DNA of 33,534 nt from Deltaproteobacteria bacterium. GTDB taxonomy: Bacteria > Myxococcota_A > UBA9042 > DTJE01 > S145-11. Shown here in pieces: positions 8,483 through 16,575 of the stretch. The DNA lies in assembly GCA_015493765.1 (NCBI GenBank), contig WGCQ01000183.1, positions 1 through 33,534 of the forward strand. The letters run 5' to 3'. Numbering within the stretch: position 1 is the stretch's first letter; each line of letters opens with the position of its first letter. Position numbers and translations under genes: made by a program. The notes under the pieces are model-generated. The model saw only the letters and a program-made list of their open reading frames with translations. It made no database searches and was not told where the DNA came from.

Positions 8483-9387
8483 TCCTTGGTTTTCTGGTGG
8501 TTGCGCTTGTTCCGATTGTGGGCTGGACTGATACGTTGCAGCCCGGGGAGCAGGCAATACAGAATTGTATCCTGAAATCGGTGAGTTCGTTGGACAGGCG
8601 AAGGGCAGGACGGCTGCGTGCACCGGCGTATTTGTTCGTGACAGCCGAGCCTGCATGGGCCAAGATATTCATTGATGGCAGGAAGGTGGGCAAGGGTACT
8701 GCGATGTTCACCCGTTCAAAGGGCAGCCCGTTTGTCAGGATTCGGATCACGGCACCTGATCACCAGGCGATACAGGGGTGGTTGCGTTTGAAACCGAAAA
8801 TCGTGTTGAAAGTCAGGGCCAAATTGCACAGGCGCGGCGGCAATTTAACGCTTCTTACCCCGCCTGCGCATGCCAAGGTCAAGATCGACGGGATTTACTC
8901 CGGTGTGACCCCGGTCACGATTAGTAATCTCGACCCAGGTCCTCATAAGGTTGAAATGAGTGCCGGAGCATGGCAGTGGCAGGCCATGTTACAGGTCAAG
9001 GCAGGACAAACGCAGGTATTGTCCATGAATGTGCCTTCGGGCATAGTGCGACCTGCGCAGCCTGCTCCAGTGGCATCCCCAGCACCGGCGGCCTCTGAGC
9101 CCAGGGCGGTAGAAGCGGCTAAACCGGCCCCCGGGCCCCAGCAACCGCCCGCGCCACCGGTAAAAAAGACCGTAAAGGTGGACATGACAAAAAGAAGGCC
9201 CAATTGTAAACTGATTTGTGCGCATTATGCGGATGCATCCCACGCATCCAAGGCCGTGCGCCAGGTTTTAAAAAGCGCATGCATGGACCGTTGCAATGCC
9301 CTGGACCTGCCGTTTTCCGTGTGTGCATGGAAGGCTAAATCCATGTCCGATATACAAAAATGCCAAAGCATGCCAGCATCCAGGTAG
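8461..9387 (+). CDS. Exported PEGA-domain protein with Cys-paired C-terminus
   Basis: This is a 308-aa secreted or periplasmic protein. A signal peptide is visible (V-I-L-G-F-L-V-V-A-L-V-P-I-V-G-W). Two PEGA-like beta modules follow: FVTAEPAWAKIFIDGRKVGKG at about residues 58-80, with a tail through about 120, and TLLTPPAHAKVKIDGIYSG at about 128-180. An Ala/Pro linker spans about 195-238. The C-terminal about 70 residues hold six cysteines (CKLICAHY, SACMDRCN, FSVCAWK, IQKCQSM), probably disulfide-bonded. PEGA domains occur in surface layer and peptidoglycan-associated proteins of deltaproteobacteria and are thought to bind other proteins or cell wall. It is probably expressed with the preceding Lcl_C lipoprotein and may form a surface assembly with it. 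Confidence 0.75.
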   Translation: MRIVKQVILGFLVVALVPIVGWTDTLQPGEQAIQNCILKSVSSLDRRRAGRLRAPAYLFVTAEPAWAKIFIDGRKVGKGTAMFTRSKGSPFVRIRITAPDHQAIQGWLRLKPKIVLKVRAKLHRRGGNLTLLTPPAHAKVKIDGIYSGVTPVTISNLDPGPHKVEMSAGAWQWQAMLQVKAGQTQVLSMNVPSGIVRPAQPAPVASPAPAASEPRAVEAAKPAPGPQQPPAPPVKKTVKVDMTKRRPNCKLICAHYADASHASKAVRQVLKSACMDRCNALDLPFSVCAWKAKSMSDIQKCQSMPASR

Positions 9388-9423
9388 CCCGGTTTTAGTC
9401 CGGTAATTTTGGCGTAGGCATTC

Positions 9424-10353
9424 CTATTTACACAGGCTGTACCACAACATCCGGTCCTTCATGCGGGCGTTTTGTCGTTGGGCAAAGTGTTCGGATAGGC
9501 GTTCGGACGAAGTTACGAACAGGGCACTGGATATTCCAGCCTCGTGTAGCGTGTTGTTCAGGTAGGCGTATCCGTCGTCGGTTAATCCCCGGCCACGGAC
9601 GGGCTTGGTTACACCCATGGCCATAATATATACCTCGGCCGGGCCTGTGCGTTGCAGCAGGCAAAAACCCACCACATCCTTACTGCCAGGCTCCAATGCG
9701 GCGAATGACAGGTGGTTGTCAAAGCCACGGGTTGCCAGGATCATGCGCAGGGCCTCGTACCAGTCCATGTCCTTGCCGCCAAAGACCTTTACGTAACTCT
9801 CTGCCAGTTTTGCGGGGTCGATACCGTCCAGTCGAATGAATTGCCACCGTCCGGAACGGGGCTGTTCGTTTTTTTTGATTGGTATCTCCATGTAAAACGC
9901 ACCTTTGCCGGCGCGCTGAAAACCCAAGGATTCAAAGAACGGTATGGCCTGCCTGTTGTCCCGTTCCATAAGGGTGATGAACAGGCACAAACGTCCGTTT
10001 TTTATGCCCAGGATATCGTGCATGGCTGTAATCACGCCCTTTGCGGTTTCGGAAGGGTCCTCCTGATGTGCGAATTCGTGAATCAGGGATACATTGTAGA
10101 GCATGTAGTTATCCAAAACGCGGGCACGTTCGGCAAAGGCTGAGTCCTGCATATTTCCTATATGAAATTTTGGGTCCCTGTAGTCCTCGAATATACCGAA
10201 TCCGGTCAGTTTATCCTGGTCAAAGCGTCCTATTACGTACGTTTCAGGCTTATACAGGCCCAATAACGCAGGGTCACGGCCCAAATCCGTACGAATGTGC
10301 TGTTCAACCAGTTTGAATGTCGAGTCCTTTTGGGAGATCAACCTTGATATCAT
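9424..10353 (-). CDS. Double-GNAT acetyltransferase of the peptide cluster
   Basis: This 309-aa protein looks like two fused GCN5-related N-acetyltransferase domains. The first half (about 1-165) has DNRQAIPFFESLGFQRAG, the typical GNAT C-terminal strand-helix. The second half has YIMAMGVTKPVRGRGLTDDGY, the acetyl-CoA-binding V-x-x-x-x-R-G-x-G pattern, and a following helix. The start ATG at 10353 is well supported by AAGGAGGG about nine bases upstream. It lies inside the end of the radical SAM gene (50-base overlap), so the two are translationally coupled. In this setting a role in acetylating the modified peptide, or in self-protection, is plausible, but that is inference. An unrelated cytosolic acetyltransferase cannot be excluded. 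Confidence 0.7.
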   Translation of the reverse strand: MISRLISQKDSTFKLVEQHIRTDLGRDPALLGLYKPETYVIGRFDQDKLTGFGIFEDYRDPKFHIGNMQDSAFAERARVLDNYMLYNVSLIHEFAHQEDPSETAKGVITAMHDILGIKNGRLCLFITLMERDNRQAIPFFESLGFQRAGKGAFYMEIPIKKNEQPRSGRWQFIRLDGIDPAKLAESYVKVFGGKDMDWYEALRMILATRGFDNHLSFAALEPGSKDVVGFCLLQRTGPAEVYIMAMGVTKPVRGRGLTDDGYAYLNNTLHEAGISSALFVTSSERLSEHFAQRQNARMKDRMLWYSLCK

Positions 10354-11419
10354 TTACTTTTCCCTCCTTTTCAAGGCGATAGAAACAATAGGGATTGTTG
10401 AACGTATCGCCGGTTACAGTAAAACCCACATTTGCACAGCCGGCCCTGCACGTGGCACCAAAGGGGCAGGACTTGCAGGCACCTGTTAATTGTTGCGGGT
10501 CGAAATGACGATTGCGTGCAAATAACTGCGGGTCGTTCCATATCTCAATCAGGCTACGGTTTCGTATGCTGTCTTCTATAAATGCATCATGCATGCTCAG
10601 GCACCCCTTTACCCTGCCGTCAGACAGGATTCCCAGTGTGTACAAACCGGCTGCGCAACCATCCCAGCCAGGTAGTTCCGAGTAACGGGATAGCACGCTG
10701 CTGTTATAGCCTATGTCGTGACTGCCCGCAACAGGCAGGCGTTCGACAGGGAGCGTATTGCGGAGTTTGCTGATAAACGCGCCTACCCAGTAAAATTCCC
10801 TGGGTGACAGCATGAAACTGCGGTCAAAACGTGCCCCTTCAGGGGTTGCCATCTGGATCTGCCAACTCATGTCCTGGTCCAACAATATTTCGGCCATTTT
10901 TGGCAATTCGGCCAGGTTGTGTTTTGTAACCGTGGTGATTACTCCGGTTTCGATGCCCTCATCCCGAAACATCTTTGCAGCCTGCCATGCCTTTTCGAAA
11001 GAGCCTGGTCTGCGCCTTATTGCATCATGTGTGCCGGGTGTTGCACCATCGATGCTCACACCAATGCGATCCAGGTTACGAAGCCGTTTTAGTCGGGCCA
11101 GCAAGTGCCCATCTACCACGTAGCCGTTGGTGATAAACACCAATCGCAGTCCCTGACGGTCCGCAGCCCTTGCAACATCAAACCAATCGGACCGGACAAA
11201 GGGTTCACCGCCCAGCAAGCAGACCTCGTACCCGCCCAGGCGGCGAAGGTCCGCAAACAGATTATCGAATTCCTGTACACTCAATTCGTTTGGCCTGGGC
11301 CTGCCAGCACTGGAGCCGCAGTGTTCACATCGCATGTTGCATGCCAGGGTCAGTTCAACGTTTACACTGTAAGGATACCAGCCATTTTCCTTTACTATGC
11401 CGCGCAATTCTTTTTTCAT
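10304..11419 (-). CDS. Radical SAM/SPASM protein 2 of the peptide cluster
   Basis: This 371-aa protein is a candidate peptide-modifying enzyme. The radical SAM cluster motif is ACNMRCEHC (C-x3-C-x2-C), followed by LLGGEPFVRSDW (G-G-E-P, SAM binding), VFITNGYVVD and IGVSIDGATPG. The C-terminal SPASM-type region begins after about residue 275 (DGCAAGLYTLGILSDGRVKGC) and ends with SCPFGATCRAGC and a final Cys in NNPYCFYR, ligands for auxiliary iron-sulfur clusters. I prefer the ATG at 11417-11419; an ATG 12 bases upstream is also possible. It is about 30% like its neighbour at 11938 by eye and shares the motif AGRPRP-NELS/DELD. No RRE (PqqD-like) domain is evident. Together with the precursors it argues for a RiPP pathway. 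Confidence 0.85.
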   Translation of the reverse strand: MKKELRGIVKENGWYPYSVNVELTLACNMRCEHCGSSAGRPRPNELSVQEFDNLFADLRRLGGYEVCLLGGEPFVRSDWFDVARAADRQGLRLVFITNGYVVDGHLLARLKRLRNLDRIGVSIDGATPGTHDAIRRRPGSFEKAWQAAKMFRDEGIETGVITTVTKHNLAELPKMAEILLDQDMSWQIQMATPEGARFDRSFMLSPREFYWVGAFISKLRNTLPVERLPVAGSHDIGYNSSVLSRYSELPGWDGCAAGLYTLGILSDGRVKGCLSMHDAFIEDSIRNRSLIEIWNDPQLFARNRHFDPQQLTGACKSCPFGATCRAGCANVGFTVTGDTFNNPYCFYRLEKEGKVNDIKVDLPKGLDIQTG

Positions 11420-11931
11420 GACAGGCCCCATTGGGATGTTCGTTGCCACGCACAACAGTCCGGTAATCCGGACTGTTTCGGACCAGGAGTCCGAATTTCC
11501 GGACTGTTTAGTCGTATGTACCTGTAAGTGCCATTATGTAATGCTTTGAATATCAAGATTTTTTTTCTTTGCCCTGGGTTTGGTATGCTGTTTGCATATG
11601 GTACGACGTCCCTTGCGGGATGATTGACAGGCCGCTGCAGTGGCGAACAGGGTACCCGGGGTTTAGCCCCACAGACCTTTGGTGGTGGACAGGTCTGCCC
11701 TTGGACCTGGAACAGGCTCGGCGTGACGGCGGGGGAGGGCCCATGCGTTAGCCCGGCGTCTGGCCCGTGGCCAACCCCCCTTTCTTCACAATGTGTTACA
11801 AGCATTTTTACCCTGCCACCATGGACGCAACGCCCCTGCGCTCCAATATCAAAATCCATCCATTCAAGCCAGCCTGCCGACCTGATTTTTTGCGGATTTT
11901 CGTTCCCACTGCCCCAGAACACCGCAACCAT
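11416..11931 (-). CDS. Doubtful 171-codon ORF filling the gap between the two radical SAM genes
   Basis: This otherwise gene-free spacer is open in one frame from an ATG seven bases after the stop of radical SAM 1 to a TGA that overlaps the ATG of radical SAM 2 (A-T-G-A). That fit suggests a coupled gene. The predicted protein is unfamiliar: Gly-, Pro- and Cys-rich in the middle (TCPPPKVCGAKPRVPC) and basic near the end (PGQRKKILIF). Against it are rare codons (CGA, CTA, ATA, AGA) in the last third, other open frames on both strands, and perfect palindromes within it (11455-11505). The spacer also contains hairpins such as GGGG-CTAAA-CCCC. I consider a regulatory or structured spacer at least as likely. 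Confidence 0.25.
   Translation of the reverse strand: MVAVFWGSGNENPQKIRSAGWLEWMDFDIGAQGRCVHGGRVKMLVTHCEERGVGHGPDAGLTHGPSPAVTPSLFQVQGQTCPPPKVCGAKPRVPCSPLQRPVNHPARDVVPYANSIPNPGQRKKILIFKALHNGTYRYIRLNSPEIRTPGPKQSGLPDCCAWQRTSQWGLS
11455..11505. promoter_or_regulatory. Two tandem palindromes before the second radical SAM gene
   Basis: Bases 11455-11476 form a perfect 9-base inverted repeat, ACAGTCCGG / CCGGACTGT, around TAAT. Bases 11488-11505 form AGTCCG / CGGACT around AATTTC. On the minus strand both begin AAACAGTCCGGA, and their centres are 31 bases apart, about three helical turns. They lie 36-86 bases before the start of radical SAM 2. They could be operators for a dimeric regulator or RNA hairpins affecting the operon message. 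Confidence 0.5.
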
Positions 11932-11937
11932 TTCTCA

Positions 11938-13011
11938 TCATCCTATCTCGCCCTGCTGTTCCATGTGGTACAGGCAAAACGGGTACTCATATATGGACCC
12001 TGTGTATGCCAGGGCATGGTCCATACAACCGGCCCTGCAAATGGCCCCGTATTTGCACCCCCTGCACTTGCCCTGCAGGTCCTGCACGCGAAACTGCCGA
12101 TTATAGGCGCAACACTCAGGGGACTCCCATATCTGTTTCAGCGTGCGCTGTCTCACGTTTCCTTCAATAAACCGGTCAGGCAGGATGCTGCACCCGGTCA
12201 CATCGCCGTTACTGCGTATGCCCAGCGTGGAAATACCGGCCTGGCAACCGTTCCACGGGTCTTCGTGTAATTCCCCGAACACATTCGAAAAATATCCCAG
12301 GTCGTGCGTTGCCGTGATGGTCAAACGGCCTTTATACCTGGCCCTGTTTTCACCTATAAAACGGGCCAATCTCAGAAATCCGGTCTTATCCAGCATCATG
12401 GCGCTGGACAGCCTGGTGAATTCGTGGCTGGACGACATATTGAGCATCCACGTAAAGCCAGGCGCCTTATCCAACAGGATATCGAGTGTCTCTTCCAGGT
12501 ATTCTATATTCATCGTATTCACCGATGTGATTACGGTCTTGTATGCGAGGTCCATGCCTGCGATCAGTTCGATTGTGCGCAGTACCCGATCAAACGACCC
12601 CGCAACCCCTCGAATCCGGTCGTGCACCTGCCTTGGACCGTCCAGGCTGACACCTACCTGCACGATACCCAGGTCCGCAACCTGCCTGGCCACTTCCTTA
12701 TCAAACAACGTGCCGTTCGTGATCAGTCCAACCGCGATCTCTCGTTCCGCCAGGCCTGCTGCAATTCTGACCCAATCCCTGCGCAATAAGACCTCGCCCC
12801 CCATCAACGCAACAGCAGGCACACCCAATTCTCCCAGCTGCTCCACCACGTCCAGGGCCTCCTGCCGGTCCAATTCATCCGGCCTGGGCCTGCCTGCTGC
12901 AGCGGCGCAATGCCTGCAACGCAGGTTACATCGCAGTGTGACCTCCCAGATCACATAATCAGGCGGTCCCGGAAATGCACACATGCCCTGTTCTCCATAC
13001 AAAGTCTCCAT
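11938..13011 (-). CDS. Radical SAM/SPASM protein 1 of the peptide cluster
   Basis: This 357-aa protein has the radical SAM motif TLRCNLRCRHC (C-x3-C-x2-C) near residue 30, ALMGGEVLLRRDW (G-G-E), GLITNGTLFD and GVSLDGPRQVHDRI. Its SPASM-type C-terminal region carries NGCQAGISTLGIRSNGDVTGC, then GKCRGCKYGAICRAGC and a last Cys in EYPFCLYH. It therefore probably binds three iron-sulfur clusters, as in peptide-maturing enzymes such as PqqE and MftC. The ATG at 13011 overlaps the methyltransferase gene by 53 bases; a second ATG at 12984, behind GGAGAA, would reduce this. A paralogue lies downstream. Two different SPASM enzymes beside repeated small peptide genes suggest two successive modifications, or one enzyme per precursor. 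Substrate assignment is inference. Confidence 0.85.
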   Translation of the reverse strand: METLYGEQGMCAFPGPPDYVIWEVTLRCNLRCRHCAAAAGRPRPDELDRQEALDVVEQLGELGVPAVALMGGEVLLRRDWVRIAAGLAEREIAVGLITNGTLFDKEVARQVADLGIVQVGVSLDGPRQVHDRIRGVAGSFDRVLRTIELIAGMDLAYKTVITSVNTMNIEYLEETLDILLDKAPGFTWMLNMSSSHEFTRLSSAMMLDKTGFLRLARFIGENRARYKGRLTITATHDLGYFSNVFGELHEDPWNGCQAGISTLGIRSNGDVTGCSILPDRFIEGNVRQRTLKQIWESPECCAYNRQFRVQDLQGKCRGCKYGAICRAGCMDHALAYTGSIYEYPFCLYHMEQQGEIG

Positions 13012-14224
13012 AATTGAAAGGCCTGTTGTCAGGCCTCCCCTGTTTCAACAAATTTATACGCCTGTTTATTTCGTGGCGCAGCAATTCGTATTCGCTGCCA
13101 TCCAATCTGTCAAAAATTTCCTTATATTTTGCAATGGATTGTGCCATTCTGCCCCGTAAGCCTTGTGTGCATGCCATATTCAAATCCCCGTACAGCCATA
13201 ACCCTGCCCTTGAAGCCCGCGTAAACATGTCCATTGCCCCGACAATGTCATGGTCCAGCAACGCCTTGTTGCCCTGCACAAGCAGTTGCCTCAGGAACCG
13301 CTCATGCCTGTAACGACTGAATAAACGTACATCCACATGCTCCGAATCGTCCTTGAGTTCGCCTTTGGCCCACAGGCATGTTTCCTTGACAAAAGCCTCA
13401 TAATCCATGGCCTTGTCCACCTCGGCCAGCCTGCGTTCATACCGTCCCAGCATGTACCCCAGCCAGTCTTTTTTCCACAGTCCGTCCGCAATCTCCTGTA
13501 TTTCCCGTTTTTTTGCACCCCATGGCCGCCCGTCACCCCACGACTCTGCGAAACCCTTTGCCACCACAGGATGCAAAGCCACCAGCCCGAACATGCACCC
13601 CATGTCCGGTTGTCCTTGCGCCAGGCACGCCGCCACGGATTCACGCAACTGGAGCACCTCCAATTGGTTTGCCGAGTCCAGCACCCCCATGTTTACCATT
13701 TTGGGCCAGAACCCGGACCAGAAATCTGCCGTTTCCGTCACCTTCTTCCTGGCCACGATCCGCAGCCCCGGCGAGGACAGGTGGCTTTGACCCTCGCCGT
13801 TTTCAATGACCTCAAAACCCGCTGTTTCCGTTTCCATTTGTAACAACGCCCCTGGCAGCAACATTTCGTGTTTCATTCCGGGCATATCGAGCCCGAATAT
13901 AAAGGACAACATGCGTTTGCGTTCGTGTACATCGCCTTGCAGGAATGCTTCAAAACTGCCCTCGATATCCGGTGTTTCCAGTATAAACACCCCACCAGGC
14001 CGCATTACCCTATAGACCCCGGACAATACGGCTGGCAGCGTCCTGTATGGCAGATGTTCTATGACATGACTCATGCACACGTTGTCAAACACCCCCGCCT
14101 TGAACGGTAGAGCCAGGGCCTCGGCCTGTACATCGGGTAAAAACGTGGCGTCCAGGTCGATATTCACCCAGCCGGGCAGATAATTATCCCCTGCGCCGAT
14201 GTGCAATCCCTTAAATGCATTCAT
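12959..14224 (-). CDS. SAM-dependent methyltransferase with a long uncharacterised C-terminal region
   Basis: This is a 421-aa protein. Residues about 1-175 form a class I methyltransferase domain of the COG4627-like type. The motifs are GLHIGAGDN followed by LPGWVNIDLD (motif I and the acidic residue binding SAM), ALALPFKAGVFDNVCMSHVIEHLPY, and a post-motif VMRPGGVFILETPD. The remaining about 245 residues (from FWSGFWPKMVNMG on) are alpha-helical-looking, rich in Trp, Leu and charged residues, and I do not recognise them; they may be a substrate-binding domain. The gene follows the precursor genes by about 20 bases and overlaps radical SAM 1, so it belongs to the same operon. O- or N-methylation of the peptide is a reasonable inference. 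Sugar or lipid methylation is the alternative, because this domain type is frequent in polysaccharide loci. Confidence 0.75.
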   Translation of the reverse strand: MNAFKGLHIGAGDNYLPGWVNIDLDATFLPDVQAEALALPFKAGVFDNVCMSHVIEHLPYRTLPAVLSGVYRVMRPGGVFILETPDIEGSFEAFLQGDVHERKRMLSFIFGLDMPGMKHEMLLPGALLQMETETAGFEVIENGEGQSHLSSPGLRIVARKKVTETADFWSGFWPKMVNMGVLDSANQLEVLQLRESVAACLAQGQPDMGCMFGLVALHPVVAKGFAESWGDGRPWGAKKREIQEIADGLWKKDWLGYMLGRYERRLAEVDKAMDYEAFVKETCLWAKGELKDDSEHVDVRLFSRYRHERFLRQLLVQGNKALLDHDIVGAMDMFTRASRAGLWLYGDLNMACTQGLRGRMAQSIAKYKEIFDRLDGSEYELLRHEINRRINLLKQGRPDNRPFNYGDFVWRTGHVCISGTA

Positions 14225-14245
14225 TTTGTATCTATGAATGTCAGT

Positions 14246-14581
14246 TCAACAGATTGGAACGTTTGAGTAAACCGTAAAGAGTCCCGGACGCATAAGGTGT
14301 CGGTACAGGTGGCTTTTTCCGCTGGCAGCAGCACGTTTTTCCAGTTGTTCCAACCCATGGACAGTCATGTCCTTTTTTCCCGATGCGGTCACATCCGCCT
14401 GCAGCAGGTTTGACCGCTTGATCAGCCCGTAATCAGCCCCGGGTGGGTACGGCGGAGGTACAGGTGGCTTTTTTCCCGGCACACCCGGTGTACGCCGTTT
14501 TTCCAGTCGTTCTGCACCTGCCACACCTGACTTTTCTTTATCCTGCCGGACCTTGCCTGTCTTTTTCAGGTTTTTATCCAA
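14246..14581 (-). CDS. Two-core RiPP precursor candidate, second core frameshifted
   Basis: As read, this is a 111-codon frame beginning at TTG 14579-14581, which overlaps the stop of the first precursor by eight bases and has AGAGG seven bases upstream. It begins with a basic leader (MDKNLKKTGK), then AERLEKRRTPGVPGKK, then PPPYPPGADYGLIKRSNLL. It then repeats the design: TVHGLEQLEKRAAASGK. In the next codons the second copy loses the frame. Where the first copy has six A's (plus strand T's 14469-14474), the second has five (14314-14318). Restoring one A gives PTPYASGTLYGLLKRSNLLN and a stop at 14241-14243, closer to the methyltransferase start. The shared block across three copies argues that this is a peptide substrate, not a random frame. 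The change could be a sequencing error, a real mutation or slippage. Confidence 0.65.
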   Translation of the reverse strand: MDKNLKKTGKVRQDKEKSGVAGAERLEKRRTPGVPGKKPPVPPPYPPGADYGLIKRSNLLQADVTASGKKDMTVHGLEQLEKRAAASGKSHLYRHLMRPGLFTVYSNVPIC

Positions 14582-14723
14582 GGTTGGACCTCTTGATCAA
14601 ACCGTATTTGGTGCCCGGTGGATACGGCGAAGGGCTGGGATTTTTCTTGCCGCTGGGTGCGGCACGTTTTTCCAGTTTCTCCACCTTTGGTGCATCTTTC
14701 TTATCTTTTTTTTCTTCAGCCAT
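14574..14723 (-). CDS. Small RiPP precursor candidate, single core (49 aa)
   Basis: This short gene is easily overlooked. The ATG at 14721-14723 follows AGGAGG closely (AGGAGGCTGTTATG) and the frame ends at TAA 14574-14576. The peptide starts with a highly charged MAEEKKDKKDAPK leader, then VEKLEKRAAPSGKK, and ends PYPPGTKYGLIKRSNLG. The same leader-hinge-core arrangement recurs twice in the next gene. LEKR offers a dibasic-type cleavage site, and the invariant tail YGL(I/L)KRSNL is the obvious candidate core. It is the first gene of a minus-strand operon with a methyltransferase, two radical SAM/SPASM proteins and an acetyltransferase. A ribosomal peptide natural product is the simplest explanation; a small regulatory or structural protein family is the alternative. 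Confidence 0.75.
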   Translation of the reverse strand: MAEEKKDKKDAPKVEKLEKRAAPSGKKNPSPSPYPPGTKYGLIKRSNLG

Positions 14724-14772
14724 AACAGCCTCCTGTGTCACGTTAGTTCACCAATCACCTATTGCAAACAAT

Positions 14773-14800
14773 GATATATAAAATCATCTGGATTTGTCAA
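14773..14800 (-). promoter_or_regulatory. Promoter of the peptide cluster
   Basis: On the minus strand, a perfect TTGACA (14800-14795) is followed after 16 bases by TATATC (14778-14773), about 50 bases before the first precursor start. No other convincing promoter was seen between here and the end of the GNAT gene, so this may drive the entire cluster. Confidence 0.6.
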
Positions 14801-14847
14801 TAGTGATCGGATTTTTCTTGACCAGGGACAATCAGAGCAAGTTTTTA

Positions 14848-16575
14848 TTATGGATTTTGCTTGATCGTTTTTTTGATGATGATAGGCGTCTGTTCGATGA
14901 TCGTGAATTCAACCCGGCGGTTCTTTGCGCGGCCTGCACGCGTCTTGTTTGAGGCAATGGGCCTGGTCGGGCCATAACCTGCATACTCCAGGCGATTGGG
15001 ATCGACCCCGGCCTTGACCAGGAATTTCATAACGGACTTTGCACGCCGTTTACTGAGCCTCATGTTGAAGCGCCTGCTGCCCCTGCTGTCCGTATGACCT
15101 TCAATCCGTATCTTCTTTATCTGAGGATTCTGATTCAGGACCTGGGCAACCTCTTTCAACAGTTCGTACGAGTCCATCATGATCTTTGCACTGCCAGTCT
15201 TGAAATGCACCTTTTGCATGATCACGATTTTCTTCTTCGTGATCTTGACCAGCGGAGGCGGACAACCGTTGTATTTGCGCTCACCACGGACCTTGGGGCA
15301 TTTGTCCTCGAGGTCAATGATGCCGTCGCCGTCGCTGTCAGGGCATCCCTGGTATTTCCTGGGGCCTGCGACCTTCGGACAGTGGTCCTCGGAATCCTGG
15401 ATCCCGTCGTTGTCCGTGTCAGGACAGCCGTCAAACTGCCTGAGGCCCGGGACCTTGGGGCATTTGTCCTTGCGGTCTTCTATGCCGTCCTTGTCCGTAT
15501 CAGGACAACCCTTGAATTCGATTAGTCCCGGTGTCTTGGGGCACTGGTCATCTTTGTCCGCAACCCCGTCCTTGTCCGTGTCAGGGCAGCCTTTTAACTC
15601 GGCCGGCCCGGCCACCTTGGGACAACGGTCCTTGTCGTCCGGTACACCGTCGCCGTCGGAATCGCACACGGTGCGGTCAGGCCTGTACGCAAGCCCCACA
15701 ACCACACGCGCCTTGGGACTGCCAAACCCCCGCGTGGTACCGCCCCCTGCAGCCACCATCAAGCCCAGGCTCATGGGCAGGTGGATGTCAACACCACCCA
15801 GCAAATCCAGTGATGTGTTGTACTTGCTGGAGAATGCGTGTGCAGCCTGGGTACGCAATTCGGCCGTGCCAATCAGGTCCAGTTTTTTGCACCACACAGG
15901 CAGGCGTGTACCCAGAGAGAACAACAATTCGTCACCCACGGTAAATCCTGCCACATTCACGTTTTTCCTGGCCCGGTACCCGATGTCGAATGCAAAGATA
16001 TAACCCTTATGGTTATAGTCCATGGCCAGAAACGTGGTGGACGTGACATTGTCATCGCCCGTAAAGTTGTGGGCAGTGGCCGTGGGCATGGTCAGGTCCT
16101 CGGCCAATGCAAGGGAAAAGCCCTGTGCACCCTGGCTGAACAATTTTACCTTCAAGCCGAGCCTCAGGTCGCCCAGGGACCCGCCGTTGATTTTGTACAG
16201 GCTGGATGACCCGGGTGAATCGCCCTTGGACGTAAAGTACACCGGGATGTCCAAGCCAACCGTGACCCAACCCCACAGGGACACACTGCCATAGATGTCC
16301 ATGCCTGCCTGGTGCGTCACTGACTGGTAGATCATCTTGCCATTACTGGCGTCCACAATGGCCAGGGGCTTGTAGGCATACTTGAAGAATGCGCCTGCAG
16401 TGAACTTGAGGTGACCCGGCAGCCAGCCTGTCTGCACGCCCAGTATGTCACCGGGATGCACTGACGGCCTGAAAAAGTCCATGTTCACCTTGGGCGCCTG
16501 TTTTGCCTGTACCAGATTTGAACCGAATATCAACGATATTCCAATCAAAAGATACGCCGTGTGCTTTAATTTCAT
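14848..16575 (-). CDS. OmpA-family outer membrane protein with five thrombospondin type 3 repeats
   Basis: This 575-aa outer membrane protein has four parts. A signal peptide (residues about 1-24, AYLLIGISLIFGSNLVQA) is followed by an about 280-residue predicted beta-barrel. Five 27-residue thrombospondin type 3 repeats come next (304-438, pattern C-P-D-T-D-K-D-G-x-x-D-x-x-D-x-C-P-K-x-x-G). The OmpA-like peptidoglycan-binding domain completes it (about 455-565, with RIEGHTDSRGSRRFNMRLSK and the final NRRVEFTI). The repeats bind calcium in known proteins and would act as a rigid spacer between barrel and cell wall. The ATG at 16575 follows GGAGG closely. A promoter is 50-80 bases upstream. The architecture is widespread in deltaproteobacteria and Bacteroidetes. 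It has no visible functional link to the adjoining peptide cluster. Confidence 0.88.
   Translation of the reverse strand: MKLKHTAYLLIGISLIFGSNLVQAKQAPKVNMDFFRPSVHPGDILGVQTGWLPGHLKFTAGAFFKYAYKPLAIVDASNGKMIYQSVTHQAGMDIYGSVSLWGWVTVGLDIPVYFTSKGDSPGSSSLYKINGGSLGDLRLGLKVKLFSQGAQGFSLALAEDLTMPTATAHNFTGDDNVTSTTFLAMDYNHKGYIFAFDIGYRARKNVNVAGFTVGDELLFSLGTRLPVWCKKLDLIGTAELRTQAAHAFSSKYNTSLDLLGGVDIHLPMSLGLMVAAGGGTTRGFGSPKARVVVGLAYRPDRTVCDSDGDGVPDDKDRCPKVAGPAELKGCPDTDKDGVADKDDQCPKTPGLIEFKGCPDTDKDGIEDRKDKCPKVPGLRQFDGCPDTDNDGIQDSEDHCPKVAGPRKYQGCPDSDGDGIIDLEDKCPKVRGERKYNGCPPPLVKITKKKIVIMQKVHFKTGSAKIMMDSYELLKEVAQVLNQNPQIKKIRIEGHTDSRGSRRFNMRLSKRRAKSVMKFLVKAGVDPNRLEYAGYGPTRPIASNKTRAGRAKNRRVEFTIIEQTPIIIKKTIKQNP
15262..15666 (-). 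repeat. Five tandem 81-base repeats encoding thrombospondin type 3 units
   Basis: Each unit encodes a segment like CPDTDKDGVADKDDQCPK plus a nine-residue linker ending K-G or N-G. The DNA copies are similar enough that length variation by recombination would be plausible. Confidence 0.75.

Follow-up and report, generated by a model that had tools for sequence, protein, structure and literature searches.

The minus-strand genes at 9424–14723 of the window (the whole stretch of DNA analysed, a single contig of 33,534 bases from a 3.57-Mb draft genome, G000) encode, in order of transcription, two precursor peptides, a methyltransferase, two different radical SAM (rSAM)/SPASM proteins, termed A and B, and finally a GNAT protein. 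All of these had been listed in a sequence-only reading of the DNA, and all are present on that strand. That they form a RiPP cluster is well supported by sequence comparison, and the cluster is probably of the spliceotide type, with splicing of the precursor backbone, a known but uncommon reaction, as its predicted chemistry. In the PlpXY system, PlpX together with PlpY removes tyramine from Xaa-Tyr-Gly (PMC11002830). The splicease reading is taken here because the X-Y-G pattern of the cores is the substrate signature of PlpX and because both rSAM proteins belong to a lineage associated with such XYG motifs. Membership of the spliceotide class is not claimable as shown: the cores carry the motif, the family scores of the enzymes lie below cut-off and a PlpY partner was not found.

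Precursor peptide 1 (14574–14723), a 49-aa ORF with AGGAGG before its ATG and a profile match of 3.3e-22, has a leader with KVEKLEKRAAPS and the core KKNPSPSPYPPGTKYGLIKRSNLG, in which the XYG site, Lys-Tyr-Gly, is at 14601–14609. Precursor peptide 2, a 111-aa ORF (14246–14581), starts at a TTG that overlaps the end of peptide 1. It carries block 2 (profile match 7.0e-26; XYG site Asp-Tyr-Gly, 14426–14434) and block 3, so that the two ORFs hold three core blocks between them. Block 3, KKPPVPTPYASGTLYGLLKRSNL (14250–14321; Leu-Tyr-Gly), is shifted by one base from the frame of its leader, MTVHGLEQLEKRAAASGK; near 14318 it has an A5 run where block 2 has A6. Of the two related blocks earlier attributed to the second peptide gene both are there, but the second one is out of frame. 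Since synonymous sites of the precursor codons are near saturation and non-synonymous differences are low, the peptides are, by this measure, selected coding sequences under purifying selection. The pattern extends to the out-of-frame block, where the high pS and low pN argue for the frameshift being either a recent loss or an assembly/sequencing error.

The consensus of 12 complete cores from four genomes is KKxPxPxPYxxGxXYGLxxRxNL, with 13 of its 23 columns invariant. X, directly before the invariant Y-G-L, is the column of highest entropy (2.36 bits; K, L, D, Y, R or G), and the second Tyr (in PxPYxxG), the KK pair and RxNL are also invariant. In the leader an ExxExR-type motif is kept, mostly as LExRxAP (consensus VExLExRxAP). 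The peptides match no family in Pfam or NCBIfam, the leader matches neither the Nif11 nor the nitrile-hydratase models, a search of the precursor against plasmids gave no match and the GDL motif is absent from the peptides. The earlier view that the cluster is undescribed and matches no nameable precursor class is half right: the invariant (X)YG is a known splicease substrate motif and the enzymes are in the XYG-associated rSAM lineage.

The peptide profile, searched through 379 genomes of the phylum, has matches in five of them: G000, G006, G008, G216 and, weakly, G200. The sequence-only reading had proposed looking for the core motif beside SPASM proteins and for conserved synteny, and both searches bear it out. 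Scanning of 14 genomes of the order for the DNA pattern YGLxxRxNL, with the reversed pattern as control, found it at the clusters of G000 (3), G006 (3) and G008 (1), with all seven of these matches within clusters; the one further match is in G003, where the reversed control pattern matches too. The gene order in G006 is peptide, methyltransferase, A, B, GNAT, peptide, peptide and M50-family protease. That in G008 is peptide, methyltransferase, A and B up to a contig end, with GNAT, peptide and M50 protease on another contig (C92). In G216, which is of another family, two peptides are followed by a methyltransferase gene within which the contig breaks off, and two more precursors are on a contig whose inspected stretch contains no recognisable cluster gene; searches of this genome gave no close orthologue of the rSAMs, its own being 36–42% identical. 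A conserved leader, a partly variable core and synteny with a modifying enzyme, by which RiPPs are generally recognised, are all seen here. Adjoining the precursors in G000 is an OmpA protein that bears thrombospondin type 3 repeats (window 14848–16575); a similar protein occurs in G216 (L153, about 1300–2030) and is absent in G008, and the association may be coincidence.

The two rSAM/SPASM proteins, A (11938–13011; PF04055 and PF13186) and its paralogue B (10304–11419), are both candidate spliceases on the evidence of Pfam, NCBIfam and a tree. Both keep CxxxCxxC and all of the SPASM cysteines. For each the best NCBIfam matches are TIGR04103 (nif11-3 maturase) and TIGR03913 (GDL-motif maturase). 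Because the scores (202 and 187 against a curated cut-off of 725 for TIGR04103, 189 and 186 bits against 591.75 for TIGR03913) are far below the curated cut-offs, the two proteins are, as judged by these models, members of neither family. Searching PDB sequences with A returned general SPASM/rSAM enzymes only, such as SkfB and PqqE, and a scan of genome contigs with A found distant relatives only.

Models for AhbD, NirJ and MftC match both proteins as well, with lower scores, as might be expected of a NirJ/AhbD-like pair of heme or cofactor enzymes that happens to lie beside unrelated small ORFs and makes no RiPP at all. This is highly improbable, being already contradicted by the synteny and by the tree. 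In the latter, of 66 rSAMs rooted on AhbD, NirJ, TIGR04347 and MftC, A and B are in an XYG-associated clade of 55 rows that is separated from AhbD/NirJ/MftC with support of 98/95. Moreover, separate AhbD-like genes are present in both G000 and G006, and the small ORFs show purifying selection and accompany the cluster in other genomes. A heme/cofactor assignment was rejected on the tree separation and the separate AhbD-like genes. Within the XYG-associated lineage, the Nostoc TIGR04103 protein is in a clade that does not include A and B. The G006 orthologues of A and B group with their counterparts with support of 100/99 each, and of 100/97 together. Orthologues of A are 54–57% identical to the protein in the window and the orthologue of B is 56–57% identical, while A and B are 38% identical to each other. 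By sequence, A and B are paralogues of ancient origin, and each is also kept in a relative that shares the gene order.

The association of this rSAM lineage with XYG is broad. Of 50 homologues, 20 have at least three sense-strand XYG per 120 aa beside or within them, compared with none of 15 AhbD loci (p 0.002), and leaving out two spurious-looking cases (L072, L126) gives 18 of 50 (p 0.004). On a Nostoc plasmid, p057_G (L057), the TIGR04103 protein is flanked by a Nif11 precursor whose last residues are ALYGLPPELF and by a 71-aa protein, a layout that looks like the PlpX/PlpY arrangement. In Azospirillum the TIGR03913 protein is downstream of three peptides, two of which have LYG or PYG near the N-terminus (in the segments PIRMLYGG and PLRSIKPYG). 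Single XYG peptides are also found in the lineage, as in Agathobacter (GPVMYGTGVRM, upstream of its rSAM), and at a sister locus, L128, a peptide terminates in TTKYGIDEED. The link of the lineage to YG is not a strict one, since in one clade (L052, L055) the rSAMs are preceded by PPYMAPDSGP/PEYMAPDSGP repeats in which xYM replaces xYG.

Several further arrangements came to light in this survey. An rSAM is in one open frame with C-terminal XYG repeats at L047, L048, L050 and L053, and the same fusion of enzyme and repeats is present at L034, L036, L049, L051, L054, L078 and L082 (repeats such as CCxCDYGIIPEEVW and PDVQxEYGIPPDV); here a splicease-like rSAM apparently forms one protein with the XYG substrate on which it would act. 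In a more distant clade (L114, L115, L116, L117) the rSAMs are beside repeats of the GPVVKYGGPPD kind, another XYG-type substrate, in which X is Lys. The stretches L129 7792–9972 and L156 1–4000 show further multiple rSAM genes: G366 has another tandem rSAM pair, followed by a sulfatase-like gene, and on contig C290 of G216 a similar sulfatase-like gene comes after one rSAM, together with a second rSAM.

The reactions of SPASM rSAMs are many, and A and B score below the family cut-offs, both of which would accommodate some other radical chemistry at the Tyr (MftC-like decarboxylation, crosslinking or epimerisation) with no splicing. Such chemistry is unlikely, however, in view of the placement of A and B away from MftC in the tree and of the pattern of variable X before invariant YG, which is common to PlpX-type substrates. 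A PlpY-type partner was sought with the Nostoc partner as query and found neither in the window nor in the relatives; the same single-sequence query had no match at other XYG loci either, and hence the search is a weak one. As no PlpY-like partner was found, rSAM-B or another protein may fill that role.

In the spliceotide pathway proposed for the cluster, the ribosome would make the short precursors, whose conserved leader (VExLExRxAP) would be bound by the enzymes, and one or both of the rSAM/SPASM proteins would target the invariant Xaa-Tyr-Gly within the core. A tyramine unit (C8H9NO) would be excised from the Tyr and the chain rejoined, yielding an alpha-keto-beta-amino acid whose side chain is that of the variable X. 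Methylation would be the part of the methyltransferase and acylation that of the GNAT protein, and an M50-type protease, whose gene is linked in two relatives and unlinked in G000, would release or process the product.

A possible, if not a probable, extension of this pathway is that the two rSAMs differ in chemistry, with one splicing XYG and the other modifying another invariant site, candidates being the second Tyr, in PxPYxxG, the two Lys of KK and the tail motif R-x-N-L. Divided labour is suggested by the ancient divergence of the paralogues, each kept in G006 and with 38% mutual identity, and by the invariance of all three candidate sites; the PPYMAP/PEYMAP repeats at L052/L055 suggest that the lineage may act on Tyr outside YG. 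On the other hand, rSAM-B could equally be the partner of A or serve a subset of precursors, and the invariant residues may be recognition elements. Rather unlikely is a pathway in which the duplicated and diverged spliceases install two different modifications in one 23-residue core (for instance one at XYG and one at the Tyr of PxPYxxG), with methylation and acylation to follow. If two modifications are indeed made per core, the products would be a spliceotide subclass with new rSAM chemistry.

The methyltransferase (12959–14224) is of class I by Pfam. Its C-terminal half is all-helical in a low-confidence model (pLDDT 53) and TPR-like, with TPR matches in orthologues; the suggestion that structure prediction be used to detect an RRE led to an all-helical half that lends an RRE no support. 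In the GNAT protein (9424–10353; orthologues in G006 and on C92 of G008) there are probably two tandem GNAT folds. The double GNAT of the earlier description is plausible from two beta-alpha repeats in a low-confidence model, though the Pfam match (PF00583, residues 209–293) is clear for the C-terminal half only. It had also been stated that no RRE, dedicated protease or exporter is visible. The cluster yielded neither an RRE nor an exporter; a protease candidate is the M50-family gene that follows precursors in G006 and G008. Its homologue in G000 (29% identity) is on another contig (L131, 8434–9657), with no XYG cluster in the stretch read.

An unbroken run from one promoter, with most gene ends overlapping, was a further feature of the sequence-only reading. 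All of the genes are on the minus strand and there is one strong promoter-like pair, TTGACA-18-TATCAT (14771–14800, minus strand), upstream of peptide 1; it has 11/12 matches in a consensus scan, which is not evidence of function, and promoter-like sites in the cluster region are no more frequent than in shuffled sequence. The ends of peptide 1/peptide 2, methyltransferase/rSAM-A and rSAM-B/GNAT overlap, but a 518-nt gap splits rSAM-A from rSAM-B. In the gap is a dispersed repeat (11452–11772, minus strand) that has dozens of copies in the genome; it is about 320 nt long and consists of a block of about 150 nt (about 85% identity) with a long palindromic hairpin of about 55 nt at its end. Rfam gave no match to it or elsewhere in window 9000–15000. 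G006 has no such gap between its two rSAM genes. An ORF at 11416–11931, between the rSAM genes, was discarded as spurious because it overlaps the repeat. The insertion of the repeat, together with the one-base difference in block 3, could be taken as signs that the cluster is dying in G000. Decay is quite unlikely, however: two cores are intact, as are the catalytic motifs of both rSAMs, the methyltransferase and GNAT frames are open throughout, and the block 3 difference may be an assembly error.

As a splicease system the cluster would be compact: its cores run to about 23 residues, its leaders are short, and X is naturally K, D, L, R, Y or G. If the reading is true, the side chains available in ketoamides would be extended to charged and aromatic ones, and short tags for protein labelling would follow. 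The paired rSAMs offer a direct test case for the division of labour between duplicated spliceases. The survey, for its part, ties a broad set of uncharacterised rSAM/SPASM proteins of the phylum to XYG substrates, among them enzymes fused in frame with their presumed substrate repeats.

Of the known systems, PlpXY of Pleurocapsa and TIGR04103-type loci such as that of Nostoc (L057) likewise have an rSAM/SPASM protein next to precursors in which Tyr-Gly is invariant and X varies. The core here is PxxYGL-like (splice tags tested for PlpXY contain PxYGLPI; PMC10533398) and TIGR04103 is the best NCBIfam match. Unlike in those systems, the leader matches no Nif11/nitrile-hydratase model, there are two rSAM paralogues with a methyltransferase and a GNAT protein, no PlpY homologue was found and the family score is below cut-off. 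The TIGR03913 GDL-motif system (DUF1843 peptides; Azospirillum, Aureibacter; L058, L126) shares a related rSAM lineage and multiple short peptides, several with xYG, but its xYG is near the N-terminus, before the GDL segment, whereas here it is near the C-terminus, and the rSAM scores here are below cut-off for that family too. Multi-XYG repeat systems of the same phylum (such as L047, L048, L053, L038 and L065) have homologous rSAMs (about 30–41% identity) and repeated xYG; they differ in that the XYG is carried by long repeat proteins or by the rSAM itself as a fusion, and the flanks read hold no methyltransferase or GNAT of the present kind. With selidamide-type RiPPs (discussed in PMC9505594) there is in common a GNAT protein in a RiPP cluster, the maturase in their case, and the core here has conserved Lys residues; acylation here is putative, and the likeness drawn is one of gene type. 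Predicted splicease systems to the number of 939 have been catalogued (Scott et al. 2022, as cited in PMC11002830 and PMC10533398), and the present variant may already be among them without description. Most likely the precursor family, its leader and the tandem rSAM pair are what is new here, along with differing tailoring genes, while the chemistry is of the known spliceotide kind.
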